Part shown: positions 34,878-63,779 of the stretch, one piece after another
Layout of the letters: the number at the start of each line of letters is the position of its first letter
Numbering within the stretch: position 1 is the stretch's first letter
Assembly (NCBI RefSeq): GCF_963675165.1
Contig: NC_087392.1
Location: 1,255,001-1,319,000 of the forward strand
Length of the DNA: 64,000 nt
Source: Halichondria panicea
Taxonomy: Eukaryota; Porifera; Demospongiae; Suberitida; Halichondriidae
Direction of reading: 5' to 3'
Notes under the pieces: generated by a model
What the model saw: only the letters and a program-made list of their open reading frames with translations
Told to the model about the DNA's origin: nothing
Database searches by the model: none
Made by a program: the position numbers and the translations under genes

Positions 34878-37158
34878 GGAATTAAATGCGTGGGCGGGTG
34901 TGTGTACATCAGCTGACTTAGGTAGACCCTGAAAACAACATCACCATAGCTACACCCCATAAACAAACATACTGTTTAGCCTGTGTTGTTCCCTGAGCAC
35001 TGCCAGTACACCAGCCACTGTCACACCCTCCAACTGTAGCAGTCAAAACAACATATGAGTAGGAAACCTCATCAAAAGACAAAGATAAGATTCAAAGCTA
35101 GGCATTGTTGTAGCAAGAATCAAAAACAGTTTATAGAGCCTATGGCACAATAATTATGGATAGAAAAAAATGCATGCAAGAGCTTGTAGATTGAAAGATG
35201 ACAATGAGTATACATGAAACCTACGACGATATTACTAATTTAAAACATAATTATGGGACATAGCTGTAGCTATATATAAGAAAATGTGCAACTCACTGAG
35301 TGCTTGGGGTCTAGTAGCTGAGTCACCACACTGTCTGTCTCCTCTGTCTCAGAATGGTGTGAGGCTGTGTGCTGTGTGAGGGGGTGGGCCAGAGTGGCAG
35401 AGCCTGAGGGCCGATTCTTGTAACACTTGTTTGGTGTGGCAACAACCTCGGGAAATGCCATAGTCGCCTGGTTGTAGCTGGGATTCTTTAGCTCACTCTT
35501 GATCAGCAGGACAGGAGCAGACTCGAGACCACTTGTGTCCACCTTCTTGTTTACCTAGAGTGAGAGCAAGGTCATTATTATTTTGATTAGCAAGAACACA
35601 TAAAACAGTGGTTTAATTGTACACACATGATGCAACATACTTCACATTTCATATCACACGGGCTGAAACACATAGTTACCATAATCCCTGCCTTCCCGTT
35701 GATTGGTGTGTTGGGGCCGTTAGGTGTAGGAGTCTCCACAAAAGCCGTCTCCCCGACAGCCGGTGTTTTGACAGGATCGTCTGATTGGCTAGTATTGCTC
35801 CCCGAGTCGTCATCAGGTGAGGAGCACCCATCAGGAGTATGTTCATCACGTGTGCCGGGTGTTGACGTCTGGGGATACTTGATCACAGGGGTGGGGTCTT
35901 TAGAGGGGGCAGGCTGCTCTGGTACATTGACATCTGAGCAGCTGTTGACTCTCACTTTGCGAGACAATTTATCCTTTTTTGTCGAAGTGCTTTTACCACT
36001 AAATCCTCGCAGATCTCTCTCTGAGCTGGATTTCTTAGAGGGCATCTTTGGTGTTGTATTACCTCCACTCGCCTTACTGATATTGTCTGTGCTTCTGGCC
36101 TTTACCATTCCTCCTGACTTGAATGGAGGAAGTTTCTTTGTCTCTCTCGGCTCCTCTCGACTTACTCCCTTCGTAGCAAACGCTTTGAGGGGCTGACGAC
36201 GGTTGTTCGATGATGATTGAGTGCTGGTTTTGCTGCTGCGTTTTTGTACTGGAGCCGAGAGTCTGTTCACAATCTGCTGCTGCAGGGAGAGAGTGTTCAG
36301 TCCCTTCTGTGTGGCTGTCAGGGAACCTGTTTTAATCTCCCTGTCAACTGACGTGCTTCTGCTGCTGGGGGAACTGTTGGGCCGACTGCGACGTCCAAAA
36401 TCCATTTCAACTTTGTTGATGGGGACAAAAACACCATAGTTTGCATCACAGGTGAAATAACGAATTCCTTTGTAAGTGCCGTTGTTCTTGCCACTGGCAT
36501 TGTTCAGTTCCACTCCACACCACGTTCCCGTCGAGAATTCCGTCTCTCCGATGAATCGAAGGGTCCCATATTTGCTTTTTTTATCGGCAGATGAATAGTA
36601 GAGCACTCTCTTGCCGACATCTCTGAGTGTGGGTTGAACGGATATGTCTTTGTGAGTCCCTGAGCACTCTGAGTCACTGGTATCCGGTGAGACCTCGTCA
36701 ATGTGGTGAGCGAGCTGTGCAATACAACACACAATCAATCTTGTCAATAAATGGATTTTTAATGGATTTCAGAGTAGCTTTATACTCCCACTAATGGCTC
36801 TACAGGGTGTTAATAGACTGCAAAGACTTTGCAGACATCTGATCCCAATTTGCAAGTCCAGCTACAGTCTAGTCCAACAGCACTAGATCTAAGCAAGAGT
36901 ATATACTCTTGATCTAAGGTTACTCTACTTTTGATTAATAGGGCATAGATAGTCTAGTAGAGTAAAAATTTGTGCTGTTTTTGTGCTATAAAATACACAG
37001 AAAAGGACACAAACAAAAACTTCCTACTTCCTACAGCCAGCAAAAATAATAAAATAATATTTGGATATAGGCCTAGCTATGGATTTAGATGCTGAAGCGT
37101 TATGATTCATAGTTACAAACATAGTCTACGTACTTACTGGTAGTGCAAGCTCAGTCAT
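33606..37158 (-). CDS. CAP-Gly domain microtubule-binding protein (CLIP-like) with C-terminal coiled coil
   Basis: Eight coding exons (37138-37158, 35680-36714, 35297-35554, 34973-35033, 34780-34830, 34423-34442, 34066-34153, 33606-33625) give 517 residues. One CAP-Gly domain lies at residues ~38-108: GKRVLYYSS, FIGETEFSTGTWCGVELN, GKNNGTYKGIRYF and YGVFVPINKV. The GKNNG loop that grips EEY/F tails is conserved. A long basic Ser/Pro-rich region follows, then a short coiled coil (VLAVLREQHRLNTLQKK ... LKELVERHQSEIMALNR) ending ELRRHR. It most resembles CLIP-family CAP-Gly domains but has only one and a short rod, so a direct CLIP-170 name is not justified. It would bind microtubule ends or lattice. 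The 20-nt exon was placed because it alone joins the flanking coiled-coil exons in frame. Confidence 0.82.
33626..34065. other. last intron of the CAP-Gly gene with a (TG)n run
   Basis: 440 bases. A (GT)11-type run lies at 34021-34042, and a (G)8 homopolymer near 33990. No exon is visible on either strand. Confidence 0.5.
34832..34870 (+). repeat. (TG)n microsatellite directly upstream of a CAP-Gly gene 3' splice site
   Basis: About 20 TG units abut the exon at 34780-34830. Read on the minus strand, the (CA)n run ends in CAG, which serves as the 3' splice site. Confidence 0.85.
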
Positions 37159-37321
37159 GGTACGATCTCTCCTTGTCTTGCTCTAGCTAGCTCTCTCTTC
37201 AATGCTTCAATCCAATAACTCCACTGCGGTTCAAATTGGCTTGTTGCGGAAATGTAGAATAAATTACCACAAGATCCACCCCCTTTTCTAGCGCTAGCCA
37301 CCTCCAAATGTCTCACCTCCA
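37159..37321. promoter_or_regulatory. bidirectional upstream region CAP-Gly gene / epimerase-GT8 copy A
   Basis: Only 163 bases separate divergent start codons. No TATA box or other motif is called; promoter function is inferred from spacing. Copies B and C of the epimerase-GT8 gene have quite different upstream DNA. Confidence 0.4.
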
Positions 37322-38169
37322 ATGGCTGCTGACTGGCCTCTCCTGACCTTTAAGCTGCTTCTCCTGCTATGTGTGCCTTCCTGTGTCCTAGTGTGCACTC
37401 TCCTGGGCTTGCATTCTACGCAGACTGGTAAGTTTGCCTGGGAAACCACAAGTGTGCCTGCATGCACACACATTGCAATGCAGTGTTGGTTATTGTTATA
37501 ATTTGCCACTGAGCTTCTTCATTCCATTCCCATACACACATAACACAATTGCAGACTTCGTTCGTCCCAAGGTTCACTGCACCCCTATCCCCACGCACAC
37601 ACTCATCACACAGCCCCACTCGCAGCGGGTAGTCCTAGTAACGGGCGCTGCCGGATTTATTGGCTACCATATCAGCCGAGCCCTGGTTGACAACTGGAAG
37701 GCCACTGTAGTCGGTCTAGACCTATTCACAGACTATTACGACCCTCAACTCAAGCATGACCGTGCAAACGAGCTAATCAAGATAGGGGTCACCATTTACC
37801 GGGACGATGTCTGCGACGCTCAACTTTTACTGCATCTGTTTGAGAGATACCAGTTCACAGACGTCATCCACCTTGCAGCTCAAGCAGGGGTCAGGCACTC
37901 ACTCAAGGACCCGGTCAGTTACGTGCACAACAATATCCAGTGCTTTCAAGTTCTACTGGACACCCTGAAGCAATTCAATGTAAGTCACTGATAATAATTA
38001 GTGAGTGTGTGTATTTGAATATACAACAATGTTATTAGTGAGGATCACGTACAAACTGAGATTCCCTGGAAGGAAGCTATATAGTTGACATAAACAGTAA
38101 TTCTAGACGGCTTCAAATGTTAATATACTGCACATAACTGCATGTACACTAATCACACACACACACACG

Positions 38170-38229
<60 letters not shown>

Positions 38230-41200
38230 AAACGTCTCTCGTGTATGCATCCTCCTCTAGTGTCTATGGTCGATCAGCCCCCCTCCCCTTCAGCACTCTC
38301 ACACCTCCAAATCCTCCATCAAGTATCTATGCTGCCTCAAAGCAGACAAATGAACTGTTCTCTAAAACCTATTGCTCTCAATACGGCATCCGATCAATCG
38401 GGCTACGTTTATTCACCGTGTACGGACCCTGGGGAAGACCAGACATGGCTGTGTACAAGTTTACCGACAGCATTATCAACAAAAGACCTATACCAATGTT
38501 TACAGCATCGCAAGCACTAGAGAGAGATTTCACATTTGTTAACGACACAGTGGGTGTGTTTCTGGCGGCCCTAGACCACGCCTCCCAGTGTTGTGGGGAG
38601 GTGTACAATGCTGGTCTCGGAGAGCCAAAGAGTCTGTCCACACTAGTGAGGCTGCTGGAGGAGGAGCTCAACTCAACAGCAGACACAGTGAGTGAAACTG
38701 AATGCTTCATTGCTATTGCTATTAATTGTTGGAATTGATTGCACAAACTTTTCAGGCCTGGCTAATTAATCTCACAAATGATGTGCATTTGCTAAATTAA
38801 CATTCTGTATCAGTGTTTACTTTGTGGGTACGCATTTTCACTCTTTCAATGTATGGCAGGATCCGTCTCCTTTGATGTCATGTGACTTGCATGTGACCTG
38901 GGCGGATATGGAGGAAACAAAGAGAGTCTTGGGGTACACACCTCGCGTCAAATTGAGGGACGGTCTTCGAGAATTCATAGCGTGGTACAAACACTATCAC
39001 TCTCGGAATAAAACCAGTGAAAGATTGAAGTGAGTGTTGTTTGCAGTGACAATCTCTGTAGATTGATCTGTATAGAAACACGAGTAGAAATTACCGTGTG
39101 TGTCCACTTACATGTACGTAATAGTTTTGTAATGTTAATGTATGGTGGTTGTTGATAATAAACTTGTAGGTGTACAGACTACTTAACAATTAATTATAGC
39201 GCTACTACCACTTCAACTCTTTAATGTGTGGGGTTGTGTTTGCAGGGAGTTGTATGGGGAAGGGGAAGTTATTGCTACAATGGCAAAGGGAAACCTGGAG
39301 CAAAGAAACAGAAAGTACAGTGACCGGATCAATGGCCTTAAACAGTGGTTAGAGAGCTGACAGTGCCTATGTCAACTCATGGAGATATTCCTCCAATGTT
39401 CAGGTATTATCAGTATGCAGAAGATCGTGGGATTCCATTACCTGTCCTTACAAAGAAGAGATTCATCTTCTACCCAGGTAAAGTATTTCACCCAGTGCTC
39501 TATTATCACATCATGCAATGTGCTATCATGCTTGTGTAGGTAAGGAGTCACCTGGACACACTGTGATCAAGGCCCCTAGTTACAGAGGCAACCTGAAGGT
39601 ATTCACTCAGTAATTATCCACTTAGCAATGACACTTGAGAACAATTGTTGCAGCTTTTGGAGGAGCGTTGCCTGGCTACAGAGCAGTGTATAGCATTCAC
39701 TAGTTCTGGGGAGTTTAAGAACCGACTGACTCCCATGAATAAGTGGGTGGCTACACCACAAGAGGATGGGATGTATGTGGCAGGTGAGTGAATATGGATG
39801 TGCGGGGGTGGTGTGTGGGTGTGGGGTGTTTATAGGTGTGGTGGGTGAAGTACAAATGGTAATTGCAACTACGTACGTGTACATAATTATATTGAAGACA
39901 GTTACCAGGCCTAGTTGGCTATCTAGCGTTATTTTAGAGACAACCCAGCCTATCAGGAAACTATGGTTGCACATGTTTTTAATTAAGGTGCAATTGTCTT
40001 TGCAATTAATTTCCTTATATAACCTTCAGGAATGTTGAGCAAGTCTAAGGGCCAGGTACTCAGTTGTAGTGTACATTGTAGATGCATTGAAATGTACCTG
40101 TACTTGCTTTTTTTTTACTGTGAATTATTGTGTTGCAGACATAGACTTGTGTGCATCCGACCTACACTTCTGTGGAAAGCACTCGGATTGTGTTTACACA
40201 GGTGAGTGTGGTTGTAGCTACTGGGGTGCTCATTAAACACTTGTCTGTTTGTGTAGGACCTGCCAACTACACTTGTGCATGTCACCATGGCTACCTGAAG
40301 CTGGGGCAAAACTGTGTGGAAAGGTATAAACATTTCTGTGAACTTATTAACTCAATTAGCTGTGTCTTCGATTGCAGGTATGTGCAAGGTGATGTTGGAG
40401 CCACAGAGGAGGAGTGGATCTTGTCAGACCAGTTTGACGGGTTTAACTGGGAGGAGGAGATTCGAGGGAGACCATTTGTATTCTTCCAAGGCCTGGACTC
40501 CCCTGGAGGTGACTACCTGGTTGTAGAGGGGCGAAGTCTGGAGGAATTGAGGGATGTGTGTCTCTCCACTCGACACTGTCTGGCCTTCAACACTAACGGC
40601 ATTCTCAAGGACTCTCTGCGGCCACCTAGTGTGTGGGGCAGGTGGGCAGGGCCTCAATACCCCCAACACGGACTCTATGTCTTAGGTGAGACTATAGCTA
40701 GCTAGGCAAATTCAGTGCATGGAACCATACATAGATAATAGAGCACAGAAATGTCTCTATTATCTATGATGGAACTTACAAAATAGTACACTAATCTCTC
40801 ACTTGCATGTACCGTTGCTATCCGCTTACACGAACACACACACACTCTCTCACGTACTTTTGTATACATTCTCATATTCCTACACAAACGTACATTGTTC
40901 GGAGACATTGTGAGAGATTGCTCACACACCATTCACTCTCTCCCTCTACACAGATATCGACTATTGTAGCTTGAATTTGGAGCAATGTCCCCCTCACTCG
41001 CTCTGCCTGAGGCACTCTCCTGGTAACTACAGCTGTACCTGCACACCTCCCTGGATCCCCACCCATGACCACAGCTGTACTATTGACCTCGTACACATTA
41101 TACTGTCAACTGATTCGGAACAACTCCCCGGACTGATCAGTGTCATCAACTCCACCTTAAACCATACCCAACACTCGGAGCAAATTGTATTTCATATCGT

Positions 41201-42453
41201 ATTCATTGGAGAGCGATTCGTGATTGAATCCTATCTGAGTTGCTATGGCTACAGCGACCACCCACAGATTGACATCACCATATTCAATGCTAGCCTGATA
41301 ACAGAGCCTATTAAGGTGTACTCAAAAATCAGCCACGTTGGACACCTAGCCAGTACCGGAAATTTTGCAAGGTTCTACTTTCATCTCCTCTTTCCGGAGC
41401 TGAGTCGTGCAGTGTACCTGGATGTGGACACGGTTGTGTTAGGGGACATGGCGGAGGTTTGGAGCACGCTACAGACAACAAACACACTCTTGGTGGCTGC
41501 TCCAAGGTTAGCATGATGTTGAGTTGTGTCAGTAGACTTCTTAAACTGTATCTCTAAACAGTGAAATTGTTCCCTTATTGTATTATGTTTTTAAAACTCT
41601 AAAATTGTTCTGTAGAATCTCACCGACATATGGAGATATGTTGTCTGTACATGTCAAGACATTGTTTAGGGAACGGTTGGTTATTTATGGTCTATTTTGA
41701 AAGCTACAATCAAATTATTATTGTTTCACAGATACCAGAGGGAATTCAGATCTGATGATGTTACTTTCAATGCTGGCGTATACGGAGTTAACCTTGACCT
41801 TTGGCGAGAGAATCGTATCCATGACGAAGTAGCGTATTGGATGAACCAGGTATAACAATAATAATTATGTTCATTTGTTATTTTTACCACAATGCCACGT
41901 ACGCCACCCATACACCCACACACATTGTCTAACACCCCCTCCCCCCCACTCACACACAGCAAGCTAAAGCTCCACTGTGGAAGTATGGAACACAGCCAAT
42001 CATGTTGCTAGTGGCTCACAGACAATGGGGACACCTGGACCCACACTGGAATGTTAATGGTGACTCTAGCTATTGCCATAGTATCATTATCAGTGAGTTA
42101 CTGCATGATCTCTGCAGGACTGGGCTGGAACACGAAGATGAGCAGACGCGATGTGGATGAGGCAAAACTACTTCATTGGAGTGGGAAAGGTTCATGAATT
42201 CATTTTTCTTTGCATGCAAATTACTCACTATGCAGCTAAGAGCTAATTACAGTTTAAATAGTGGCTAATTCTGATATGTTGTGTCCATGCAGGAAAACCA
42301 TGGCTACCCAATGGACTATACAAAGATTTGTGGCATGCACACAATCCTCCGTCGTGCAGTGGGCACGGTCAATGCATCACCATGGAGACAGGCATCTATA
42401 CGTGCCGTTGTGACAATGGCCATATAGGAGAACTTTGCAGCCAACAAAACTGA
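37322..42453 (+). CDS. fused UDP-glucuronate 4-epimerase / PAN-EGF / GT8 galacturonosyltransferase-like protein, copy A (intact)
   Basis: Sixteen exons (37322-37427, 37555-37979, 38229-38687, 38860-39029, 39246-39347, 39404-39477, 39540-39598, 39654-39783, 40139-40201, 40257-40323, 40378-40685, 40954-41506, 41732-41849, 41960-42059, 42118-42189, 42293-42453) total 2967 nt, 988 residues. A signal anchor (residues ~10-32, LLLLLCVPSCVLVCTLLG) precedes an SDR epimerase: TGAAGFIG, HLAAQAGVRHS, ASSSSVYG, YAASK, TVYGPWGRPDM. This is the GAE (UDP-GlcA 4-epimerase) pattern. Two PAN-like Cys modules (FIFYPG..SPG and FVFFQG..SPG) each precede an EGF (DIDLC, DIDYC). The GT8 domain has DxD in YLDVDTVV, FNAGVYGVNLDLW, LWKYGTQP and HWSGKGKPW, as in plant GAUT/GATL enzymes. 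A last EGF (CSGHGQC) ends the protein. Inferred role: Golgi-lumen synthesis and transfer of UDP-GalA. The fusion depends on a 56-nt intron (39348-39403) containing the epimerase-frame TGA. Confidence 0.85.
38154..38227 (+). repeat. (CA)n microsatellite at the 3' splice site of intron 2, copy A
   Basis: About 37 CA/CG units run directly into the CAG of the exon 3 acceptor. The same position is occupied by (CA)n in copies B and C. Confidence 0.95.
39348..39403 (+). other. 56-nt intron joining the epimerase and transferase halves, containing a decoy stop
   Basis: Starts gttaga after an AG/TG exon end and ends ccaatgttcag. Reading through gives a stop (TGA 39358-39360) four codons past the exon end. 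Splicing joins TG to G as a Trp codon and keeps frame into YYQYAEDR. Copies B (48367-48410) and C (62558-62601) have the same junction as a 44-nt intron with the same in-frame TGA, giving Arg instead of Trp. Confidence 0.8.
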
Positions 42454-42763
42454 CCAATTTATACTGTAGCTGTATTCACAAATTAAAACAAAATTTAATC
42501 ATCAATGAAAGCACCACATGTCTAGCGCCTGGTGAGATGCCTAAGCTACATAACATAAAGCTACTATTTAATAGCTTTTATACATTAATTATTGCTGCAT
42601 GCAGGCAGAATCACAGGTAGCCAGCCTCCTTCAATTCACAAGGCCTCAGTTTAGTGCTGCCTGGAATCGAAGCTAAATCGGAGACTCAAGGAGTGGGTAA
42701 TGATCGGCCTTGTTAAAAACGATCTATGCCAAAAGTTCAAGTCTTGCATGTAGTTGGGCGGAG

Positions 42764-42930
42764 TCCAACCAACGAAGATGAGCGCAGCGTTGGTTTTAGC
42801 CTCGATTCCAGGCCGCAAAGAGAAAGGTGGAATCGAGGCTACGTTGGTTGGATTCGGCTCGCACAGCCAGCCCCGGATGTTTTCTATTTGAATGCTAGGT
42901 CGATAACTCGGGGCTGGTGCGAGGCTAATT
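42764..42930. repeat. nested inverted repeats (foldback) after copy A; duplicate at about 51649-51815
   Basis: Three mirrored pairs: ccaaccaacg/cgttggttgg, agcctcgattcca/tggaatcgaggct, and agccagccccg/cggggctggt. The stems would fold into a branched hairpin. The agcctcga motif recurs in the hairpins inside copies B and C (48840, 63028), suggesting one repeat family. Confidence 0.75.
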
Positions 42931-43057
42931 CGTTTTTTTTTTTTTTTTTGAAGTTTTATATAAGCAACTAGCTATCAATGCATGTAAGCTATCAATGCAT
43001 GTATATATATATACATGTAAATAATTATTGTTATTGAGAGTTGCTGCTAGTTCAGCT

Positions 43058-43680
43058 TCAGTTCAGTGGCACTCGGCCCTCTTGGCATGCCAGGTCCATT
43101 GTGTCGATGGATGTTATTGGATGGTGAATGCTTGATCTTGCACCTCTTAGGCACATTGTAGCTGAGTGTAGTAGAGAATAACTCAGTTTGCATCTGATCC
43201 AATGGATTATCTTACTGTATGTCTTGTTTTGTTTCTGAGCTGTCATTGAGGCTATTCTTTTGTAGACTACATTTGCAATTGGGCCCATTCCTCCTGATGT
43301 TGAGAAGACAAGGGGGGAGAAGGATCCATGCTCCACTTCTCTTATACTCCACTTCTCTTATATGTTCATCGTATGCTCTTTTCTTCTCTAGTTCGTTCTT
43401 CTTGTAGCATTGACTGAGGGAGGTATGTCGATGACTCTGCGCGAAAGGGCTGAACACCCTTATGTCAAAAAATGCGCGGTTCCGATCTCTTCCCCAGAAA
43501 TTATCTGCTGCAATATCTAGGCGGGCTCCTTCCTCTCTGTTTGCCGTTCTAAGTCTGAGTTGTTCTCCTGAGAGAGGTTGGAGTGGTGGTTCAGTTCCAA
43601 CGTTGTGGCAAACCTCAGTGAGGAAACCCGCTGTAATGTCCCTCAGTTCGTTGGTTGCAAAATTGAGTTAAGCCTGTGGG
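43058..43680 (-). pseudogene. decayed retroelement-type ORF, C-terminal part; duplicate at 51944-52566
   Basis: Minus-strand translation gives PPLQPLSGE, ARLDIAADNFWG, RAFFDIRVFSPFAQS, then after a frame shift HGSFSPLVFSTSGGMGP, YKRIASM and LRGARSS. I recognise this block as a C-terminal region often found in retroelement-derived ORFs of corals and sponges; I cannot assign the class. A 16-base tandem duplication (ataagagaagtggagt, about 43339-43370) breaks the frame. The same lesion is in the second spacer copy. Confidence 0.6.
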
Positions 43681-44199
43681 TAAAAAATAAATGTGGATAA
43701 GTACAGTGGCTGTGACGTAACATAATGTGAGGACTACTTATTGATTTACACAATAGATTTACCATTGAAAGCACTATCCATTAATACACACTCAAGCAAC
43801 AAGTCCCTCGGATCGGATACACACAAGTCCCTCGGATTGTAAACACATTCAGGCCACATAGTTCTCGGATCAGATACCACGTACTTACTCTGTGACCAAT
43901 TTTTGGCAAATGTCACAACAATACTTCCTTCCAGAGAGAATGGCACTGAACGTCGAACAGACACACCAACACTTTGAAGATGGCTTCACTCAGAGAAACA
44001 AGAGGAGAAATCACCATCACAACACTTCTTTCAGAGAGAGGTGCACTGGTACATGGTCCTGTCAAGCTTCACATCAATCAAGAAAGGGAGTGTCTGGAAA
44101 GCAGATGGACTTGCTCTGGGACTTGCCATAGCCGGTCGGTACGGTACCCACATAAAACACCAGCGTACAGACTAGACTATGGTAGGGTGGTTATTAAAC

Positions 44200-44963
44200 C
44201 ATAGATTGAAAAGGAAGGGGATTGGAAACGACCAGGCCTCCCTGTGTAAATGGTTGAAACACTCCGCGTTATGATTTCGCGATCGCGATTATTTTTGTTT
44301 TGACCGTACTCTGGTTGTATTTCAACTGTTTCTAGCTCTCCTATCCACTAGCGATCACTCAGAGGCTGGGAGGTTACTCTAGAGAAGTAAGTTTACACCA
44401 CTGACAAGCTCTAACTTGTCTAAGTCCGCTGTCTTTACTCTGTTTTTAGTTTTTGTTGAGTATAGCTTGAATTACTCCATGTCAACTTTTCTCTTTCCCT
44501 GCTGCGAAGCCTAAACAGCAAAATACATTGCTTGACTTGGTTATTATGTATCTAAGTGCTATATAGAATGGTTTCATGCCATGGATAAGCTTTACTGTTC
44601 ATAAACGTTTGCAGTATAGTCCTTCAAACTGCTTTAGTATACTTTTAGACACACCACGGGCCTTGACCTCTCACGACTTCATAGTAAGGGCTATTCCTTC
44701 TTTTATAGCATGTATTTAGTGGTTGCGTTGCTTAGTCGACCTTTTAGAGCTATATTCTCTTTACTTTTTAGAATATTCAACATTAAAAGTGATCAATTTC
44801 ACCATTTCTATTTCTTTATGTACAGCACATTGTATGGCAGCCAAGACAGGTAATGAGCATGCTGACTATAAAATAATCCCTTTGTAGTTTTAGCCACGCC
44901 CTATAACGCGGAGTGTTTCACGCAAACATTTTCGTTTCCAATCCCCTTCCTTTTCAATCTATG
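44200..44963. mobile_element. 764-bp non-autonomous DNA transposon with ~32-bp TIRs; duplicate at 53086-53849
   Basis: The left end starts catagattgaaaaggaagg and the right end is its reverse complement (ccttccttttcaatctatg); mirrored inner segments gaaacactccgcgttat and ataacgcggagtgtttc extend the symmetry. A direct duplication attaaac flanks it (44193-44199 and 44964-44970). No transposase is encoded. The superfamily is not clear from a 7-bp duplication. Confidence 0.85.
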
Positions 44964-46094
44964 ATTAAACGAAGAGTGACATAATTATTTGCGCGAGTCC
45001 CCACTCGCAGAAAATGCTCATTAAAACACTTGCGAATACATAGAAAAGAATGGACGAGTGCATGATTAATTTCACAGGAATTGAAAACACAAACAAATCT
45101 ACCTGTCACCGGTAGGTATGCAGAATAGCTCACAGTTTAAAGACTAAATCGTTTTGCTTGCCTACTGCTAACTGCAGCAAGATCTGGTGCTCAGTAGGTA
45201 TATATATACAATCTCAGCCTATCTGAGTCTGAGATAGAAAGGGTGCTTGAGTACCATGAGCCCCCCTGGCTGCGCTCCTGCTGACTGGCCTCTCCCGACC
45301 TCCAAGCTGCTTATCCTGCTATGTGTGCCTTCCTGTGTCCTAGTGTGCACTCTCCTGGGCTTGCATTCTACACAGACTGGTAAGTTTGACTGGGAAACCA
45401 CAAGTGTGCCTGCATGCACACACATTGCAATGCAGTGTTGGTTATTGTTATAATTTGCCACTGAGCTTCTCCCATACACATGCATACGTAACAAGAATAT
45501 CCACTGCAGATTTCGTTCGTCCCAAGGTTTACTGCACCCCTATCCCCACGCACACACTCATCACACACCCCCACTCTCAGCGGGTTGTCCTAGTAACGGG
45601 CGCTGCCGGATTTATTGGCTACCACGTCAGCCGAGCCCTGGTTGACAACTGGAAGGCCACTGTAGTCGGTCTAGACCTATTCACAGACTATTACGACCCT
45701 CAACTCAAGCATGACCGTGCAAACGAGCTAATCAAGATAGGGGTCACTATTCACCGGGGCGATGTCTGCGATACTCAACTTTTACTGCATCTGTTTGAGA
45801 GATACCAGTTCACAGACGTCATCCACCTTGCAGCTCAAGCAGGGGTCAGACACTCACTCAAGGACCCGGTCAGTTACGTGCGCAACAATATCCAGTGCTT
45901 TCAAGTTCTACTGGACACCCTGAAGCAATTCAATGTAAGTCACTAGTGAGTGTGTGTATTTTGATATACCAACAGTCTTATTGGTACAAACTGAATTAGT
46001 ACAAACTGAGATTCCCTGGAATGAAGCAATAATAATTATAGTTGGCATAAACATGCAGTAATTCTATACTGATAACTGCATGACTGTACACTAA

Positions 46095-46096
<2 letters not shown>

Positions 46097-46181
<85 letters not shown>
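46097..46181 (+). repeat. (CA)n microsatellite at the 3' splice site of intron 2, copy B
   Basis: About 42 CA units ending in the exon 3 acceptor CAG. Confidence 0.95.
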
Positions 46182-46183
<2 letters not shown>

Positions 46184-46234
46184 AAACGTCTCTTGTGTAT
46201 GCATCCTCCTCTAGTGTCTATGGTCGATCAGCCC

Positions 46235-47331
46235 CAGGGGCGTAGGCAGGAATTTGAGGAAGGGGGGGCTGAGCTGTAGGGCGAAATTTTTCGGCGACCG
46301 GAAGCCACACCCCTTAATTAATGACTCATTTCCGGGAAGTGAATTCTATATCCTGCCAACAATCAAGGGCTATAGCTAGCTAGCTATAGTTTCAGTCTAC
46401 GTGATGACGCCTGGCAAATTCATCAACAATGTCTTCAACTGATACGTCGATGTCTCTGTGTACATGAAGTAGAGCCAGGGAGGACAAGCGATCGTTCCCC
46501 ATGGTAGATCTGAGAGGGTTTTTTTATCCTTTTAAGTCCACTGAAACTTCTCTCTACAGAACAGGAGGTGACAGGCAGAGTACATAGGCACCAACAGCAA
46601 AACTCTAACTTTTTGTTGTCGGTTTTTTCAGCTGAGGGAAATGCAATGTACAACACCACGTCTTGGTTTGACTGATCTACAGCATGGACTTGTTTTGCTA
46701 TTGGTTGGCTGCTTGACAAACTGTAGAAACAGGCCGTGTATAGTTATAGTTGTACTTATAATATAATTTTATGATGTTACAATGTTATTGTTCTTGTAAA
46801 AACAAATAACAATTAATATGCATGAAACATTGCTAATAATTATTATTTATAGTGCTAACTACATGTGCATGTACAATGTAATAATGATAATGTAGCTGAT
46901 GAGTTACTTTGCTGGCTCTTCATCAGTACTCAGGCTGGCAGTACTAGAGCTTGCCCTTGAGAAGTAGCGGTCCAGTTTCTGTGACATGTCGCTGCTTTCA
47001 ATCAACCTTCTCAATCAACCTCTGTGGTAGATTATTAATCATGCAGTTGCACAGTGCATTGCGCATGTGCAAGAAATAGCCACACCTTGCTTCAATTAAT
47101 AATACTATAGAGCTAGCTAGCTAGCCGTAGCTAGCTAGCTTAGTTGCACTAAAGAATCAAAATTACTAGTATAGTATAGCTAGCTCTTGGACATGCTGTT
47201 TGTCTGCCACTAATCTATACCAGTAATTCCCAGGCTGAAGACTCATCAGAGAAGGTGGGGCTCTTAGTGTAGTTTTTGCAGAGAAAGGGGGGGCTCCAGC
47301 CCCCAAAGCCCCCCCCCTCCCTACGCCCCTG
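46235..47331 (-). mobile_element. hAT-type DNA transposon, deleted non-autonomous copy, inside exon 3 of copy B
   Basis: The ends are CAGGGGCGTAG and CTACGCCCCTG, perfect 11-bp inverted repeats of hAT type. The flanks are AGCCC (46230-46234) and AGCCCCCC (47332-47339); the uninterrupted sequence in copies A and C is a single AGCCCCCC, so this is an insertion with a 5-8 bp target duplication blurred by the C run. On the minus strand a remnant reads LPVTSCSVERSFSGLKRIK, the hAT C-terminal dimerisation block, then breaks at a T/A run; LALLHVHRDIDV continues in another frame. The rest of the transposase is missing. Confidence 0.9.
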
Positions 47332-48839
47332 AGCCCCCCTCCCCTTCAGCACTCTCACACCTCCTAATCCTCCATCAAATATCTATGCTGCCTCAAAGCA
47401 GACAAACGAACTGTTTTCCAAAACCTACTGCTCTCAATACGGCATCCAATCAATTGGGCTACGATTTTTCACTGTGTACGGACCCTGGGGAAGACCAGAC
47501 ATGGCTGTGTACAAGTTTACTGACAGCATTATCAACAAAAGACCTATACCAATGTTTACAGCATCGCAAGCACTAGAGAGAGATTTCACATTTGTTGACG
47601 ACATAGTGGGTGTGATTCTGGCAGCCCTAGACCACGCCCCCCAGTGTTGTGGGGAGGTGTACAATGCTGGTCTCGGAGAGCCAGAGAGTCTGTCCACACT
47701 AGTGAGGCTGCTGGAGGAGGAGCTCAATTCAACAGCAGACACAGTGAGTGAAACTGATCAATTCATTGCTTAATTCATTGCACAAGCTTTTCATGCCTGC
47801 ATGGCTAATCACAATCTCGCAAATGTTGTCTCAGATTCTGTATCAGTGTTCACTTTGTGGCTACACTGTATTGCAGGATCCGTCTCCTTTGTTATCATGT
47901 GACATGCATATGACCTGGGCGGACATGGAGGAAACAAAGAGAGTCTTGGGGTACACACCTCGTGTCAAATTGAGGGACGGTCTTCGAGAATTCATAGCGT
48001 GGTACAAACACTATCACTCTCAGAATAAAACCAGTGAAAGATTGAAGTGAGTGTTGTTTTTGCAGTGACAATCTCTGTAGATTGATTTGTATAGAAACAG
48101 GAGTAGATTCTGGTTGAAATTATCGTGTGTGTGCATTTACTTGTACGTAATAGTTATGTAATTGTTAATGTTGATTGTTGATACTAACTTGTAGGTGTAC
48201 AGATTACGTGACAATTAGCGCTATTACCACTTCAACTCTTTAATGTGTGGGGTTGTGTTTGCAGGGAGTTGTATGGGGAAGGGGAAGTTATTGCTACGAT
48301 GGCAAAGGGAAACCTGGAGCAAAGAAACAGAGAGTACAATGACAGAATCAATGGTCTTAAACAAAGGTTAGAGAGCTGACAGTGTCTATAGATATTCCTC
48401 CAATGTTCAGGTATTATCAGTATGCGAAAGATCGTGACATTCCATTACCTGTCCTTACAAAGAAGAGATTCATCTTCTACCCAGGTAAAGTATTTCCACC
48501 CAGTGCTCTATTATCACATCATGCAATGTGCTATCATGCTTGTGTAGGTAAGGAGTCACCTGGACACACTGTGATCAAGGCCCCTAGTTACAGAGGCAAC
48601 CTGAAGGTATTCACTCAGTAATTATCAGTAATTATCCACTTGGCGATGGCATTTGAGAACAATGGTTGCAGCTTTTGGAGGAGCGTTGCCTGGCTACAGA
48701 GCAGTGTATAGCATTCACTAGTTCTGGGGAGTTTAAGAACAGACTGACTCCCATGAATAAGTGGGTGGCTACACCACAAGAGGATGGGATGTATGTGGCA
48801 GGTGAGTGAATGGGTGTTTGCACGCATTGTGTGGGTGTG

Positions 48840-48894
48840 TAGCCTCGAGACCAGGCCGTTCGTTGTCTGAAAGAACGGCCTGGTCTCGAGGCTA
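48840..48894. repeat. 22-bp perfect-stem hairpin in intron 8 of copy B
   Basis: tagcctcgagaccaggccg and its complement flank an 11-base loop. The same hairpin is in copy C (63028-63082) but absent from copy A at the same place (39784-39840). Confidence 0.92.
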
Positions 48895-51338
48895 TGTGGG
48901 GTGGGGGTGGAAAGGGTGTATAGGTGGGTGAAGCATAAGGGGAATTCTTGCAACTACGTATGTATACATAATTATGGGACAGCTGTAGACTGTACATTGT
49001 TGATGCTTTTTACGTCAATTATTGTGTTGCAGACATAGACTTGTGTGCATCCGACCTACACTTCTGTGGAAAGCACTCGGATTGTGTTTACACAGGTAAG
49101 TGCATGTAGTTGTAGCTACTGGGGTGCTCATTAAACACTTTGTATAGGACCTGCCAACTACACTTGTGCGTGTCACCATGGCTACCTGAAGCTGGGGCAA
49201 AACTGTGTGGAAAGGTATAAACATTACTGTGAACTTATTAACTCAACTAGCTGTGTCTTCGATCGCAGGTATGTGCAAGGTGATGTTGGAGCAACAGAGG
49301 AGGAGTGGATCTTGTCAGATCAGTTTGACGGGTTTAACTGGGAGGAGGAAGTTCGAGGGAGACCATTTGTGTTCTTCCAAGGCTTGGACTCCCCCGGAGG
49401 TGACTACCTGGTTGTAGAGGGGCGAAGTCTGGAGGAATTGAGGGATGTGTGTCTCTCCACTCGACACTGTCTGGCCTTCAACACTAACGGCATTCTCAAG
49501 GACTCTCTGCGGCCACCTAATGTGTGGGGCAGGTGGGCAGGGCCTCAATACCCCCAACACGGACTCTATGTCTTAGGTGAGACTAGCTAGGCAAATTCAG
49601 TGCATGGAACCATACATAGATAATAGAGCACAGAAATGTCTCTATTATCTATGATGGAACTTACAAAATAGTACACTAATCTCTCACTTGCATGTACCGT
49701 TGCTATCCGCTTACACGAACACACACACACTCTCTCACATACTTTTGTATACATTCTCATATTTCTACAAAAACGTACATTGTTCTGAGACATTGTGAGA
49801 GATTGCTCACACACCATTCACTCTCTCCCTCTACACAGATATCGACTATTGTAGCTTGAATTTGGAGCAATGTCCCCCTCACTCGCTCTGCCTGAGGCAC
49901 TCTCCTGGTAACTACAGCTGTACCTGCACACCTCCCTGGATCCCCACCCATGACCACAGCTGTACTATTGACCTCGTACACATTATACTGTCAACTGATT
50001 CGGAACAACTCCCCGGACTGATCAGTGTCATCAACTCCACCTTAAACCATACCCAACACTCGGAGCAAATTGTATTTCATATCGTATTCATTGGAGAGCG
50101 ATTCGTGATTGAATCCTATCTGAGTTGCTATGGCTACAGCGACCACCCACAGATTGACATCACCATATTCAATGCTAGCCTGATAACAGAGCCTATTAAG
50201 GTGTACTCAAAAATCAGCCACGTTGGACACCTAGCCAGTACCGGAAATTTTGCAAGGTTCTACTTTCATCTCCTCTTTCCGGAGCTGAGTCGTGCAGTGT
50301 ACCTGGATGTGGACACGGTTGTGTTAGGGGACATGGCGGAGGTTTGGAGCACGCTACAGACAACAAACACACTCTTGGTGGCTGCTCCAAGGTTAGCATG
50401 ATGTTGAGTTGTGTCAGTAGACTTCTTAAACTGTATCTCTAAACAGTGAAATTGTTCCCTTATTGTATTATGTTTTTAAAACTCTAAAATTGTTCTGTAG
50501 AATCTCACCGACATATGGAGATATGTTGTCTGTACATGTCAAGACATTGTTTAGGGAACGGTTGGTTATTTATGGTCTATTTTGAAAGCTACAATCAAAT
50601 TATTATTGTTTCACAGATACCAGAGGGAATTCAGATCTGATGATGTTACTTTCAATGCTGGCGTATACGGAGTTAACCTTGACCTTTGGCGAGAGAATCG
50701 TATCCATGACGAAGTAGCGTATTGGATGAACCAGGTATAACAATAATAATTATGTTCATTTGTTATTTTTACCACAATGCCACGTACGCCACCCATACAC
50801 CCACACACATTGTCTAACACCCCCTCCCCCCCACTCACACACAGCAAGCTAAAGCTCCACTGTGGAAGTATGGAACACAGCCAATCATGTTGCTAGTGGC
50901 TCACAGACAATGGGGACACCTGGACCCACACTGGAATGTTAATGGTGACTCTAGCTATTGCCATAGTATCATTATCAGTGAGTTACTGCATGATCTCTGC
51001 AGGACTGGGCTGGAACACGAAGATGAGCAGACGCGATGTGGATGAGGCAAAACTACTTCATTGGAGTGGGAAAGGTTCATGAATTCATTTTTCTTTGCAT
51101 GCAAATTACTCACTATGCAGCTAAGAGCTAATTACAGTTTAAATAGTGGCTAATTCTGATATGTTGTGTCCATGCAGGAAAACCATGGCTACCCAATGGA
51201 CTATACAAAGATTTGTGGCATGCACACAATCCTCCGTCGTGCAGTGGGCACGGTCAATGCATCACCATGGAGACAGGCATCTATACGTGCCGTTGTGACA
51301 ATGGCCATATAGGAGAACTTTGCAGCCAACAAAACTGA

Positions 51339-54141
51339 CCAATTTATACTGTAGCTGTATTCACAAATTAAAACAAAATTTAATCATCAATGAAAGCACC
51401 ACATGTCTAGCGCCTGGTGAGATGCCTAAGCTACATAACATAAAGCTACTATTTAATAGCTTTTATACATTAATTATTGCTGCATGCAGGCAGAATCACA
51501 GGTAGCCAGCCTCCTTCAATTCACAAGGCCTCAGTTTAGTGCTGCCTGGAATCGAAGCTAAATCGGAGACTCAAGGAGTGGGTAATGATCGGCCTTGTTA
51601 AAAACGATCTATGCCAAAAGTTCAAGTCTTGCATGTAGTTGGGCGGAGTCCAACCAACGAAGATGAGCGCAGCGTTGGTTTTAGCCTCGATTCCAGGCCG
51701 CAAAGAGAAAGGTGGAATCGAGGCTACGTTGGTTGGATTCGGCTCGCACAGCCAGCCCCGGATGTTTTCTATTTGAATGCTAGGTCGATAACTCGGGGCT
51801 GGTGCGAGGCTAATTCGTTTTTTTTTTTTTTTTTTGAAGTTTTATATAAGCAACTAGCTATCAATGCATGTAAGCTATCAATGCATGTATATATATATAC
51901 ATGTAAATAATTATTGTTATTGAGAGTTGCTGCTAGTTCAGCTTCAGTTCAGTGGCACTCGGCCCTCTTGGCATGCCAGGTCCATTGTGTCGATGGATGT
52001 TATTGGATGGTGAATGCTTGATCTTGCACCTCTTAGGCACATTGTAGCTGAGTGTAGTAGAGAATAACTCAGTTTGCATCTGATCCAATGGATTATCTTA
52101 CTGTATGTCTTGTTTTGTTTCTGAGCTGTCATTGAGGCTATTCTTTTGTAGACTACATTTGCAATTGGGCCCATTCCTCCTGATGTTGAGAAGACAAGGG
52201 GGGAGAAGGATCCATGCTCCACTTCTCTTATACTCCACTTCTCTTATATGTTCATCGTATGCTCTTTTCTTCTCTAGTTCGTTCTTCTTGTAGCATTGAC
52301 TGAGGGAGGTATGTCGATGACTCTGCGCGAAAGGGCTGAACACCCTTATGTCAAAAAATGCGCGGTTCCGATCTCTTCCCCAGAAATTATCTGCTGCAAT
52401 ATCTAGGCGGGCTCCTTCCTCTCTGTTTGCCGTTCTAAGTCTGAGTTGTTCTCCTGAGAGAGGTTGGAGTGGTGGTTCAGTTCCAACGTTGTGGCAAACT
52501 TCAGTGAGGAAACCCGCTGTAATGTCCCTCAGTTCGTTGGTTGCAAAATTGAGTTAAGCCTGTGGGTAAAAAATAAATGTGGATAAGTACAGTGGCTGTG
52601 ACGTAACATAATGTGAGGACTACTTATTGATTTACACAATAGATTTACCATTGAAAGCACTATCCATTAATACACACTCAAGCAACAAGTCCCTCGGATC
52701 GGATACACACAAGTCCCTCGGATTGTAAACACATTCAGGCCACATAGTTCTCGGATCAGATACCACGTACTTACTCTGTGACCAATTTTTGGCAAATGTC
52801 ACAACAATACTTCCTTCCAGAGAGAATGGCACTGAACGTCGAACAGACACACCAACACTTTGAAGATGGCTTCACTCAGAGAAACAAGAGGAGAAATCAC
52901 CATCACAACACTTCTTTCAGAGAGAGGTGCACTGGTACATGGTCCTGTCAAGCTTCACATCAATCAAGAAAGGGAGTGTCTGGAAAGCAGATGGACTTGC
53001 TCTGGGACTTGCCATAGCCGGTCGGTACGGTACCCACATAAAACACCAGCGTACAGACTAGACTATGGTAGGGTGGTTATTAAACCATAGATTGAAAAGG
53101 AAGGGGATTGGAAACGACCAGGCCTCCCTGTGTAAATGGTTGAAACACTCCGCGTTATGATTTCGCGATCGCGATTATTTTTGTTTTGACCGTACTCTGG
53201 TTGTATTTCAACTGTTTCTAGCTCTCCTATCCACTAGCGATCACTCAAAGGCTGGGAGGTTACTCTAGAGAAGTAAGTTTACACCACTGACAAGCTCTAA
53301 CTTGTCTAAGTCCGCTGTCTTTACTCTGTTTTTAGTTTTTGTTGAGTATAGCTTGAATTACTCCATGTCAACTTTTCTCTTTCCCTGCTGCGAAGCCTAA
53401 ACAGCAAAATACATTGCTTGACTTGGTTATTATGTATCTAAGTGCTATATAGAATGGTTTCATGCCATGGATAAGCTTTACTGTTCATAAACGTTTGCAG
53501 TATAGTCCTTCAAACTGCTTTAGTATACTTTTAGACACACCACGGGCCTTGACCTCTCACGACTTCATAGTAAGGGCTATTCCTTCTTTTATAGCATGTA
53601 TTTAGTGGTTGCGTTGCTTAGTCGACCTTTTAGAGCTATATTCTCTTTACTTTTTAGAATATTCAACATTAAAAGTGATCAATTTCACCATTTCTATTTC
53701 TTTATGTACAGCACATTGTATGGCAGCCAAGACAGGTAATGAGCATGCTGACTATAAAATAATCCCTTTGTAGTTTTAGCCACGCCCTATAACGCGGAGT
53801 GTTTCACGCAAACATTTTCGTTTCCAATCCCCTTCCTTTTCAATCTATGATTAAACGAAGAGTGACATAATTATTTGCGCGAGTCCCCACTCGCAGAAAA
53901 TGCTCATTAAAACACTTGCGAATACATAGAAAAGAATGGACGAGTGCATGATTAATTTCACAGGAATTGAAAACACAAACAAATCTACCTGTCACCGGTA
54001 GGTATGCAGAATAGCTCACAGTTTAAAGACTAAATCGTTTTGCTTGCCTACTGCTAACTGCAGCAAGATCTGGTGCTCAGTAGGTATATATATACAATCT
54101 CAGCCTATCTGAGTCTGAGATAGAAAGGGTGCTTGAGTACC
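51339..54141. other. spacer between copies B and C, duplicate of 42454-45255
   Basis: Same order and lesions as the A-B spacer at a constant offset of 8885-8886 bases; by eye only a handful of differences (one extra T in the poly-T run, c/t near 52496, g/a near 53248). Confidence 0.9.
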
Positions 54142-54980
54142 ATGAGCCCCCCTGGCTGCGCTCCTGCTGACTGGCCTCTCCCGACCTCCAAGCTGCTTAT
54201 CCTGCTATGTGTGCCTTCCTGTGTCCTAGTGTGCACTCTCCTGGGCTTGCATTCTACACAGACTGGTAAGTTTGACTGGGAAACCACAAGTGTGCCTGCA
54301 TGCACACACATTGCAATGCAGTGTTGGTTATTGTTATAATTTGCCACTGAGCTTCTCCCATACACATGCATACGTAACAAGAATATCCACTGCAGATTTC
54401 ATTCGTCCCAAGGTTTACTGCACCCCTATCCCCACGCACACACTCATCACACACCCCCACTCTCAGCGGGTTGTCCTTGTAACGGGCGCTGCCGGATTTA
54501 TTGGCTACCACGTCAGCCGAGCCCTGGTTGACAACTGGAAGGCCACTGTAGTCGGTCTAGACCTATTCACAGACTATTACGACCCTCAACTCAAGCATGA
54601 CCGTGCAAACGAGCTAATCAAGATAGGGGTCACTATTCACCGGGGCGATGTCTGCGATACTCAACTTTTACTGCATCTGTTTGAGAGATACCAGTTCACA
54701 GACGTCATCCACCTTGCAGCTCAAGCAGGGGTCAGACACTCACTCAAGGACCCGGTCAGTTACGTGCGCAACAATATCCAGTGCTTTCAAGTTTAACTGG
54801 ACACCCTGAAGCAATTCAATGTAAGTCACTAGTGAGTGTGTGTATTTTGATATACCAACAGTCTTATTGGTACAAACTGAATTAGTACAAACTGAGATTC
54901 CCTGGAATGAAGCAATAATAATTATAGTTGGCATAAACATGCAGTAATTCTATACTGATAACTGCATGACTGTACACTAA

Positions 54981-56695
<1,715 letters not shown>

Positions 56696-56896
56696 GTGCT
56701 CCTCGAGTACGGGGCTGAGTCTGTGGCGTTGGGTCTATGCCCTCTGGCATTGCGCCTTATGTGGCTGGGCCTCTCGTTTCGGGCTCAGTCGAGGAATCTG
56801 GTTTCGATATGAAGTCACTGCCCTTAGTTTATGTGGTCCACTTCTCACAACCCTAGGTTATTTAACTGAAATTTATTTAACTGAAAACCAATTAAT

Positions 56897-59601: not shown

Positions 59602-59867
59602 TTACATGCTCACATTGCAAGAAACAGTATGTGGGTTACACCACTCAAACGCTTCGAACTAGAATCAATCATCATCGTAGCAATATTTTCAACAAAGTAA
59701 GAACGTATATAAGCAACCACTTCAACTTTACCGATCACTCTGTCAGAAACCTGAAAGTACAGTGTATTGACGCAACAACGTCCTTCACAGAACTCCAAGC
59801 TTTAGAACACTACTGGATAGCTACACTTAGAACAATTATTCCACATGGACTAAATGTATTATCATAA
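59526..59867 (+). pseudogene. Penelope-like GIY-YIG endonuclease domain, in a shifted frame
   Basis: The frame carries EKTYPIRHQFSC, YLITCSHCKKQYVGYTTQT and LQALEHYWIATL, the Cys/His linker and GIY-YIG core of EN+ PLEs. It is -1 relative to the RT frame; the switch lies near a six-A run (59542-59547). A one-base loss there would explain it, so this copy is probably inactive for the endonuclease unless frameshifting occurs. Confidence 0.8.
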
Positions 59868-60000
59868 TGTATCCACGTGTTTTTAATTAAGTCACATGAC
59901 TTGCAGTAAATACACCTCGATCCATTTAAAAAGATAGCTGTGCAAAATCTAAAACAGATACTGAGATTGCGCATGCGCGTACCGTTCCCCATGTAGGGGA

Positions 60001-60055
60001 TTGGGACCTTTACCCACAAGGGTGGGGTCCCAATCCCCCACCCTTGTGGGTAAAG

Positions 60056-60056
<1 letters not shown>
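60001..60056. repeat. strong hairpin at the 3' end of the Penelope-like element
   Basis: tttacccacaagggtgggg pairs with ccccacccttgtgggtaaa, and an overlapping gggattgggacc/ggtcccaatccc pair gives an alternative fold. It directly precedes a CA tract and the second 1.1-kb repeat. Confidence 0.88.
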
Positions 60057-60057
<1 letters not shown>

Positions 60058-61476: not shown

Positions 61477-63027
61477 AAACGTCTCTTGTGTATGCATCCT
61501 CCTCTAGTGTCTATGGTCGATCAGCCCCCCTCCCCTTCAGCACTCTCACACCTCCTAATCCTCCATCAAATATCTATGCTGCCTCAAAGCAGACAAACGA
61601 ACTGTTTTCCAAAACCTACTGCTCTCAATACGGCATCCAATCAATTGGGCTACGATTTTTCACTGTGTACGGACCCTGGGGAAGACCAGACATGGCTGTG
61701 TACAAGTTTACTGACAGCATTATCAACAAAAGACCTATACCAATGTTTACAGCATCGCAAGCACTAGAGAGAGATTTCACATTTGTTGACGACATAGTGG
61801 GTGTGATTCTGGCAGCCCTAGACCACGCCCCCCAGTGTTGTGGGGAGGTGTACAATGCTGGTCTCGGAGAGCCAGAGAGTCTGTCCACACTAGTGAGGCT
61901 GCTGGAGGAGGAGCTCAATTCAACAGCAGACACAGTGAGTGAAACTGATCAATTCATTGCTTAATTCATTGCACAAGCTTTTCATGCCTGCATGGCTAAT
62001 CACAATCTCGCAAATGTTGTCTCAGATTCTGTATCAGTGTTCACTTTGTGGCTACACTGTATTGCAGGATCCGTCTCCTTTGTTATCATGTGACATGCAT
62101 ATGACCTGGGCGGACATGGAGGAAACAAAGAGAGTCTTGGGGTACACACCTCGTGTCAAATTGAGGGACGGTCTTCGAGAATTCATAGCGTGGTACAAGC
62201 ACTATCACTCTCAGAATAAAACCAGTGAAAGATTGAAGTGAGTGTTGTTTTTGCAGTGACAATCTCTGTAGATTGATTTGTATAGAAACAGGAGTAGATT
62301 CTGGTTGAAATTATCGTGTGTGTGCATTTACTTGTACGTAATAGTTATGTAATTGTTAATGTTGATTGTTGATACTAACTTGTAGGTGTACAGATTACGT
62401 GACAATTAGCGCTATTACCACTTCAACTCTTTAATGTGTGGGGTTGTGTTTGCAGGGAGTTGTATGGGGAAGGGGAAGTTATTGCTACGATGGCAAAGGG
62501 AAGGCTGGAGCAAAGAATCAGAGAGTACAATGACAGAATCAATGGTCTTAAACAAAGGTTAGAGAGCTGACAGTGCCTATAGATATTCCTCCAATGTTCA
62601 GGTATTATCAGTATGCGAAAGATCGTGACATTCCATTACCTGTCCTTACAAAGAAGAGATTCATCTTCTACCCAGGTAAAGTATTTTCACCCAGTGCTCT
62701 ATTATCACATCATGCAATGTGCTATCATGCTTGTGTAGGTAAGGAGTCACCTGGACACACTGTGATCAAGGCCCCTAGTTACAGAGGCAACCTGAAGGTA
62801 TTCACTCAGTGTAATTATCCACTTGGCAATGGCATTTGAGAACAATCAAATGGTTGCAGCTTTTGGAGGAGCGTTGCCTGGCTACAGAGCAGTGTATAGC
62901 ATTCACTAGTTCTGGGGAGTTTAAGAACCGACTGACTCCCATGAATAAGTGGGTGGCTACACCACAAGAGGATGGGATGTATGTGGCAGGTGAGTGAATA
63001 GGTGTTTGCACGCATTGTGTGGGTGTG

Positions 63028-63082
63028 TAGCCTCGAGACCAGGCCGTTCGTTGTCTGAAAGAACGGCCTGGTCTCGAGGCTA
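63028..63082. repeat. 22-bp perfect-stem hairpin in intron 8 of copy C
   Basis: Identical in stem and loop to 48840-48894 in copy B; missing in copy A. Confidence 0.92.
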
Positions 63083-63779
63083 TGTGGGGTGGGGGTGGAA
63101 AGGGTGTTTATAGGTGGGTGAAGCATAAGGGGAATTCTTGCAACTACGTATGTGCACATAATTATGGGACAGCTGTAGACTGTACATTGTTGATGCTTTT
63201 TACGTCAATTATTGTGTTGCAGACATAGACTTGTGTGCATCCGACCTACACTTCTGTGGAAAGCACTCGGATTGTGTTTACACAGGTGAGTGTGATTGTA
63301 GCTACTGGGGTGCTCATTAAACACTTTGTATAGGACCTGCCAACTACACTTGTGCGTGTCACCATGGCTACCTGAAGCTGGGGCAAAACTGTGTGGAAAG
63401 GTATAAACATTTCTGTGAATTTATTAACTCAATTAGCTGTGTCTTCGATTGCAGGTATGTGCAAGGTGATGTTGGAGCCACAGAGGAGGAGTGGATCTTG
63501 TCAGACCAGTTTGACGGGTTTAACTGGGAGGAGGTGGTTCGAGGGAGACCATTTGTGTTCTTCCAAGGCCTGGACTCCCCCGGAGGTGACTACCTGGTTG
63601 TAGAGGGGCGAAGTCTGGAGGAATTGAGGGATGTGTGTCTCTCCACTCGACACTGTCTGGCCTTCAACACTAACGGCATTCTCAAGGACTCTCTGCGGCC
63701 ACCTAGTGTGTGGGGCAGGTGGGCAGGGCCTCAATACCCCCAACACGGACTCTATGTCTTAGGTGAGACTATATACACA

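Follow-up and report, generated by a model that had tools for sequence, protein, structure and literature searches.

A sponge locus that pairs a candidate secretory UDP-glucuronate 4-epimerase with a GT8 transferase, possibly through a splice switch

By what arrangement might an animal genome tie the making of UDP-galacturonate to its use: through one protein, or through one gene? The question is raised by a locus in a 64,000-nucleotide stretch of the Halichondria panicea genome (131 Mb in 39 contigs); we call this whole stretch the window. On its + strand, from an ATG at 37322 to a TGA at 42453, lie 15 exons with GT..AG borders, whose parts are, in order, a signal anchor, an epimerase of the GAE type (GAE being the plant UDP-glucuronate 4-epimerase), two cysteine-containing modules, each followed by an EGF domain, a GT8 glycosyltransferase domain and a last EGF-like stretch. 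An earlier reading of the same DNA, here the original prediction, took the locus to encode a single animal protein that channels UDP-galacturonate from epimerase to transferase. Its list of parts is borne out (signal anchor, SDR epimerase, EGFs, GT8 with DVD and HWSGKGKPW, C-terminal EGF-like stretch), and the genome is indeed an animal's, with 10 Wnt matches (best E 5.3e-54), a control search having matched none of 14 genomes. Its single-protein account is overstated. Judged from sequence, the pairing of a candidate secretory UDP-glucuronate 4-epimerase with a GT8 transferase in one animal locus is real and unusual; its likeliest form, which we put forward tentatively, is one transcription unit that would give two Golgi enzymes with a common anchor exon by alternative splicing. 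Three epimerase and three GT8 copies stand in tandem (locus copies 1-3), copies that the original prediction did not include, and the epimerase is broken in two of them. Copy 1 is laid out as follows, a slash marking an exon border.

37322..37427, + strand: exon 1, signal anchor MAADWPLLTFKLLLLLCVPSCVLVCTLLGLHSTQT; donor CTG/gtaagt, phase 1; common to both predicted products
37555..37979, + strand: epimerase exon 2, with TGAAGFIG and HLAAQAGVRHS
38229..38687, + strand: epimerase exon 3, with SSSSVYG, YAASK and TVYGPWGRPDM
38860..39029, + strand: epimerase exon 4; its inner donor 39016, with 39385, would permit a fused frame
39246..39360, + strand: C-terminal exon of the epimerase, constrained in the epimerase frame and ending at TGA 39358-39360, a stop found in all three copies
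39385..39477, + strand: putative alternative exon 5b, start of module 1; acceptor 39385, score 6.4, phase 1
39540-39598 and 39654-39783, + strand: exons 6-7, remainder of module 1
40139-40201 and 40257-40323, + strand: exons 8-9, EGF 1
40378..40685, + strand: exon 10, module 2
40954-41506, 41732-41849, 41960-42059 and 42118-42189, + strand: exons 11-14, EGF 2 and GT8, with DVD and LLHWSGKG
42293..42453, + strand: exon 15, KPW of GT8, last EGF-like stretch and stop

The epimerase part carries an SDR epimerase domain (PF01370, E 1.4e-46) with the extended SDR signature TGxxGFIG and YxxxK. NCBIfam models matched it below their cut-offs, the top one being galE (129 versus 262 bits). Among solved structures 132 of 314 aligned residues are identical to PDB 5u4q, which we take to be a Klebsiella chain; the second match is 6zl6, presumably the Bacillus cereus UDP-glucuronate 4-epimerase (UGAepi). 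The epimerase residues aligned to T126, S127, S128, Y149, K153 and T178 of the 6zl6 chain are S, S, S, Y, K and T, and Arg185 is also kept; the 6zl6 residues stand at the numbers given in the paper on the B. cereus epimerase. That paper reports Thr126, Ser127, Ser128 and Thr178 as the contacts of the substrate carboxylate, and Glu in decarboxylases where the epimerase has Ser128 (PMC7984243). At the position equivalent to S128 in the 6zl6 alignment the sponge protein has Ser, not Glu, and conversion of UDP-glucuronate to UDP-galacturonate is its likely reaction. Fifteen of the 16 epimerase matches in its own genome lie inside the cluster, the sole outsider being a frame on contig C9 that looks GALE-like by eye (28%), and a plasmid search for relatives gave 1602 records, all below 60% identity, with 42.7% in the top row.

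The GT8 part is firmly placed in its family by sequence: PF01501 matches at E 4.5e-37 (128.4 bits versus a cut-off of 24.3) over model positions 1-250 of 253, and the translation contains both DVD (DxD) and HWSGKGKPW (HxxGxxKPW). Matches among solved structures were weak (20-27 bits) and comprised WbbM, the GT8 chain 5gvv and LgtC, all presumably bacterial from their names. Two EGF stretches score above the cut-off of PF12947, and the C-terminal one matches several EGF models, all below their cut-offs (best 22.9 versus 24.3 bits). The two modules called PAN-like in the original prediction do exist and are alike (39396-39783 and 40379-40684, 40-43%, pattern ..SPG...C.....C.AF...G); the name PAN is unproven, neither having a Pfam match up to E 10, and the cysteine-containing module may be an undescribed domain. 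In the genome all 6 module matches, and all 31 module/GT8 matches, fall inside the cluster. Among prokaryote genomes 78 pattern stretches yielded no confirmed GT8 relative, and no relatives of the module/GT8 part were found in viral contigs, nor of the module in phages. Use of UDP-galacturonate by this GT8 is plausible from the common locus, and unproved.

Does the reading frame pass from epimerase to transferase? Read on beyond exon 4, the epimerase frame closes within exon 5, at TGA 39358-39360, giving 424 residues, and the module/GT8 frame of exon 5 is a different one. Between copies 1 and 3 the exon 5 tail has changed by 5 silent and 6 replacement substitutions in 37 codons, with dN/dS 0.26 in the epimerase frame and 1.20 and 1.06 in the others; for copies 1 and 2 the values are 0.12 against 1.89 and 0.69. 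The tail thus changes like epimerase-coding sequence and its TGA is common to all three copies, so that the epimerase can very probably end there. Position 39360, which the original prediction had itself named as the end that would count against fusion, is conserved at the DNA level across the copies; a fused splice form could still be made. The sequence accordingly does not favour a single polypeptide with substrate channelling. Fusion by plain read-through from the epimerase is ruled out by the stop and the frame change, and for a programmed -1 frameshift no canonical slippery heptamer was found by eye in the short overlap before the stop.

Junctions that might nevertheless give fused frames by splicing were enumerated (GT/GC..AG, donors in exons 4 and 5, introns of at least 25 nt) and their sites scored with models trained on the 14 sites of the same gene model. 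In leave-one-out scoring the 14 used donors gave 2.9-11.2 and the 14 used acceptors 0.1-8.8, two of the latter scoring 0.1-0.2. Open fused frames appear solely when a junction departs from the consensus pair of exon 4 donor and exon 5 acceptor, as do, for example, 39016-39385 (2871 nt, 956 aa), 39319-39385 (2958 nt, 985 aa) and 39029-39353 (2916 nt, 971 aa). The single 2967-nt fused frame of the original prediction was thus not confirmed, and its exact length was not reproduced by this enumeration.

That copy 1 mRNA regularly skips the epimerase stop, giving one protein with both activities, we regard as doubtful, while still reckoning with it. Both parts are intact in copy 1, a signal is missing from the GT8 part, and open frames do exist, the top-scoring junction that keeps the whole SDR domain being 39016-39385. 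Its donor (CCA/gtgaaa, 4.0) scores within the span of the used donors and has the same sequence in copies 2 and 3, but it sits 13 nt before the stronger donor 39029 (7.4), with which it would compete, and its score is reached by 20 of 168 other exonic GTs. The other sites are less favourable: acceptor 39353 scores a poor -6.5, which 150 of 175 exonic AGs attain; donor 39319 has a weak score in copy 1 (2.7) and is not preserved in copies 2 and 3 (-2.3); and donor 38881 (6.0), also in frame, would remove the end of the SDR domain. A regular fusion would, moreover, have to skip an epimerase tail and stop that are conserved as such, and in copies 2 and 3 the GT8 frame has stayed open despite the broken epimerase frame. 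Fusion is possible but is not the simplest reading.

A splice switch from exon 1 would be simpler. In copy 1 the module frame can be entered from six AGs (39346-39385), among which 39385 has the top score (6.4, equalled by only 2 of 175 other exonic AGs). The exon 1 donor CTG/gtaagt, the consensus one of three possible donors for the exon 1 ATG, scores 9.4 in each of the three copies and matches in phase acceptor 39385 and its homologues 48392 and 62583. Exon 1 joined to these acceptors gives ...HSTQTDIPPMFRYY..., open to the end, with 609, 615 and 615 aa in copies 1, 2 and 3. The exon also supplies what the transferase lacks: its signal-anchor segment has a top 19-residue hydropathy of 2.67, and the module/GT8 part, a frame of 570 codons from ATGTTC, reaches 0.34 among its first 59 start positions. 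We therefore propose, from domains, frames, stop codons, copy structure, substitution counts and splice-site scores, that splicing of exon 1 to exon 2 would give the 424-residue epimerase ending at TGA 39358-39360, and that splicing of exon 1 past the epimerase to 39385 would give a 609-residue transferase of the form anchor-module-EGF-module-EGF-GT8-EGF. Both products would be type II proteins of the secretory path, presumably resident in the Golgi. The epimerase would turn lumenal UDP-glucuronate into UDP-galacturonate, and the GT8 enzyme, which the shared anchor would hold alongside it in that compartment, would move that sugar onto an extracellular glycan; GT8 transfer is of the retaining kind and leaves an alpha linkage. 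The two steps would be coupled by gene and compartment rather than by a single polypeptide.

Two independent neighbouring genes could also account for the frames, the GT8 side either having its own promoter and an unrecognised first exon or being a downstream cistron that receives its leader at 39385 by trans-splicing. The epimerase stop lies just 24 nt before this good acceptor, and copies 2 and 3, which lack an intact epimerase, retain an open GT8-side frame, both as such a pair would have it. We find it rather improbable, since an EGF-rich product without a signal would not enter the secretory path and since, when the starts in 36300-39330 were filtered for a hydrophobic beginning and a phase-1 donor, the ATG of exon 1 alone was retained. 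An Rfam scan of 36000-64000 at gathering thresholds matched nothing, and no other search for leader RNAs was made.

On the splice-switch view, copies 2 and 3 would have lost the epimerase after duplication of the locus and would yield the transferase alone. Their features are these.

45256..45379, + strand: copy 2 exon 1, anchor intact, in-frame ATG at 45256
45510..48379, + strand: copy 2 epimerase part, broken; exons 45510-45934, 46183-46235 plus 47332-47743 (one exon, split by the insertion), 47877-48046 and 48265-48379; same stop
46236..47331, + strand: insertion of 1,096 bp that splits epimerase exon 3 of copy 2, with the 6-bp repeat AGCCCC on either side
48392..51338, + strand: open module/EGF/GT8 part of copy 2, with acceptor 48392 (score 3.6) and with exons 11-15 the same as those of copy 1
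54142..54265, + strand: copy 3 exon 1, anchor intact, in-frame ATG at 54142
54396..54820, + strand: copy 3 epimerase exon 2, with a premature TAA at 54794-54796
61476-61934, 62068-62237 and 62456-62570, + strand: copy 3 epimerase exons 3-5a, same stop
62583..63762, + strand: module/EGF part of copy 3, with acceptor 62583 (score 3.0)

The GT8 exons of copy 3 lie past the end of the window, at 64104-65658 in its numbering. Copy 3 epimerase intron 2 is expanded to 6,655 bp and includes, within window positions 54970-61480, a CA microsatellite of about 600 bases; it also holds a reverse-transcriptase frame (57457-59601, PF00078), followed by a frame (59520-59867) that resembles by eye the GIY-YIG end of a Penelope-like element. 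The ends of the 1,096-bp insertion look inverted by eye, and a minus-strand frame in it resembles a hAT fragment by eye, with no Pfam match at E 0.001.

Copies 2 and 3 have a broken epimerase next to an open module/GT8 frame, and the 570-codon frame and its GT..AG exon borders are kept in all three. Substitutions were compared with one-sided, uncorrected p-values, the epimerase counts covering 387 of 388 codons. For the epimerase, copy 1 differs from copy 2 by 25.5 silent and 22.5 replacement changes (p 4e-6) and from copy 3 by 28 and 28 (p 1e-5); copies 2 and 3 differ by 2.5 and 5.5 (p 0.59). For module/EGF exons 5b-10 the three pairings, which are not independent of one another, gave 9.5 silent and 4.5 replacement changes (p 0.0001), 4.5 and 4.5 (p 0.031), and 5 and 2 (p 0.0075). 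Epimerase and modules are coding and constrained. This bears on a further alternative, in which the copy 1 epimerase alone matters, or the array is decaying, and the GT8 side has little or no function. The lesions in copies 2 and 3 would suit it, as would the lack of clear constraint in the GT8 exons of copy 3; we hold it quite improbable in view of the module/EGF constraint in all three pairings and of exon borders and a 570-codon frame intact in every copy.

The copies may also have exchanged sequence. Two blocks of about 6.1 kb, 40112-46181 and 49007-55067, are 99.3% identical, and copy 2 exons 11-15 equal those of copy 1, 8,885 bases apart, whereas its earlier exons resemble copy 3 and its exon 10 differs from that of copy 1 at 8 bases. 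This mosaic fits, and the blocks suggest, a recent unequal exchange, an assembly duplication being less likely. No retrocopy recording a spliced form was seen, nor does the window contain exon 1 joined exactly to 39385.

Several observations weigh against the splice switch. Modules outliving the epimerase in copies 2 and 3 fit it but are weak evidence for it: those two copies differ at only 6 of 387 epimerase codons, so that the lesions must be recent, and of the 6 module/EGF codons at which they differ 5 fall in exons 8-10, within the block common to copies 2 and 1, and may therefore predate the lesions. For GT8 exons 11-15, copy 3 compared with copy 1 gives 10.5 silent and 23.5 replacement changes (p 0.17), no clear sign of constraint. 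Acceptors 48392 (3.6) and 62583 (3.0) are weaker than 39385, with 10 and 17 of 175 exonic AGs scoring as high, and with 14 training sites, some near zero, the scores rank candidates and do not prove use. The fused junction 39016-39385 has sites in the usable score range that are kept in all three copies. Finally, no AATAAA occurs between the epimerase stop and 42800, so that the GT8 exons may form the 3' untranslated region of an epimerase mRNA whose frame stops at 39360, with a risk of decay; ATTAAA occurs at 40232, in an intron, and at 42482.

What would such a pair of enzymes make? Galacturonate glycans are usually regarded as a plant, and also a bacterial, trait. A review of hexuronic acids in non-vertebrates assigns galacturonic acid to plant walls and iduronic acid to animal glycosaminoglycans (PMC6994554), and genes for UDP-galacturonate have been predicted in diatoms (PMC4584364). 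The H. panicea lectin HpL is reported to bind galacturonic acid and to be inhibited by polygalacturonic acid (PMC4557014). Among the matches listed in the open-access literature, a coverage that leaves out most subscription papers, no described animal locus pairs GAE with GT8. That a splice switch lets one gene provide the enzyme that makes UDP-galacturonate as well as the one that uses it, copy 1 possibly giving some fused enzyme, and so gives the sponge its own galacturonate-containing, pectin-like extracellular glycan, is unlikely as a whole. If true, an animal secretory UDP-glucuronate 4-epimerase tied by its locus to a GT8 would offer a genetic handle on acidic glycans such as sponge-lectin ligands, and an unusual case of two pathway steps with a common anchor exon; if the two are merely co-located, they would remain a useful candidate pair.

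Elsewhere in the window, a minus-strand frame at 10988-12415 encodes a cyclic-nucleotide-gated channel (Ion_trans, cNMP_binding, CLZ). Just past its end, downstream of copy 3, lies a BTB-BACK-Kelch gene (L040 5948-8543), its later Kelch-like frames being judged by eye.

Compared with known UDP-glucuronate 4-epimerases (plant GAE, UGAepi and 5u4q), the sponge protein has in common the extended SDR family, catalytic Y/K and carboxylate-contact S/S/S/T; it differs in being an animal's, in its C-terminal tail of about 37 residues, its several introns and its locus with GT8. The 5u4q chain itself is deposited as a dTDP-glucose 4,6-dehydratase. Plant GAEs have an N-terminal anchor, as the epimerase does here. 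With glycosyltransferase family 8, including the plant GAUT and GATL enzymes, the transferase has in common PF01501 over nearly its full length, DVD and HWSGKGKPW, the last of which we take to resemble GATL; it differs from GAUT/GATL by its EGF and cysteine-module extensions, the likeness being drawn from family and motif. Another animal enzyme with a GT8 domain is the LARGE-type protein of the same genome (locus L001, C10:3302439-3306146), which has GT8 and GT49 in one long, apparently intronless open frame; it is 18% identical to the GT8 of our locus (E 0.048), and has a GT49 domain and no EGF match. With other loci and proteins in which a sugar-nucleotide enzyme is coupled to a transferase, the sponge locus would have in common that the supply of a donor is linked to its use.

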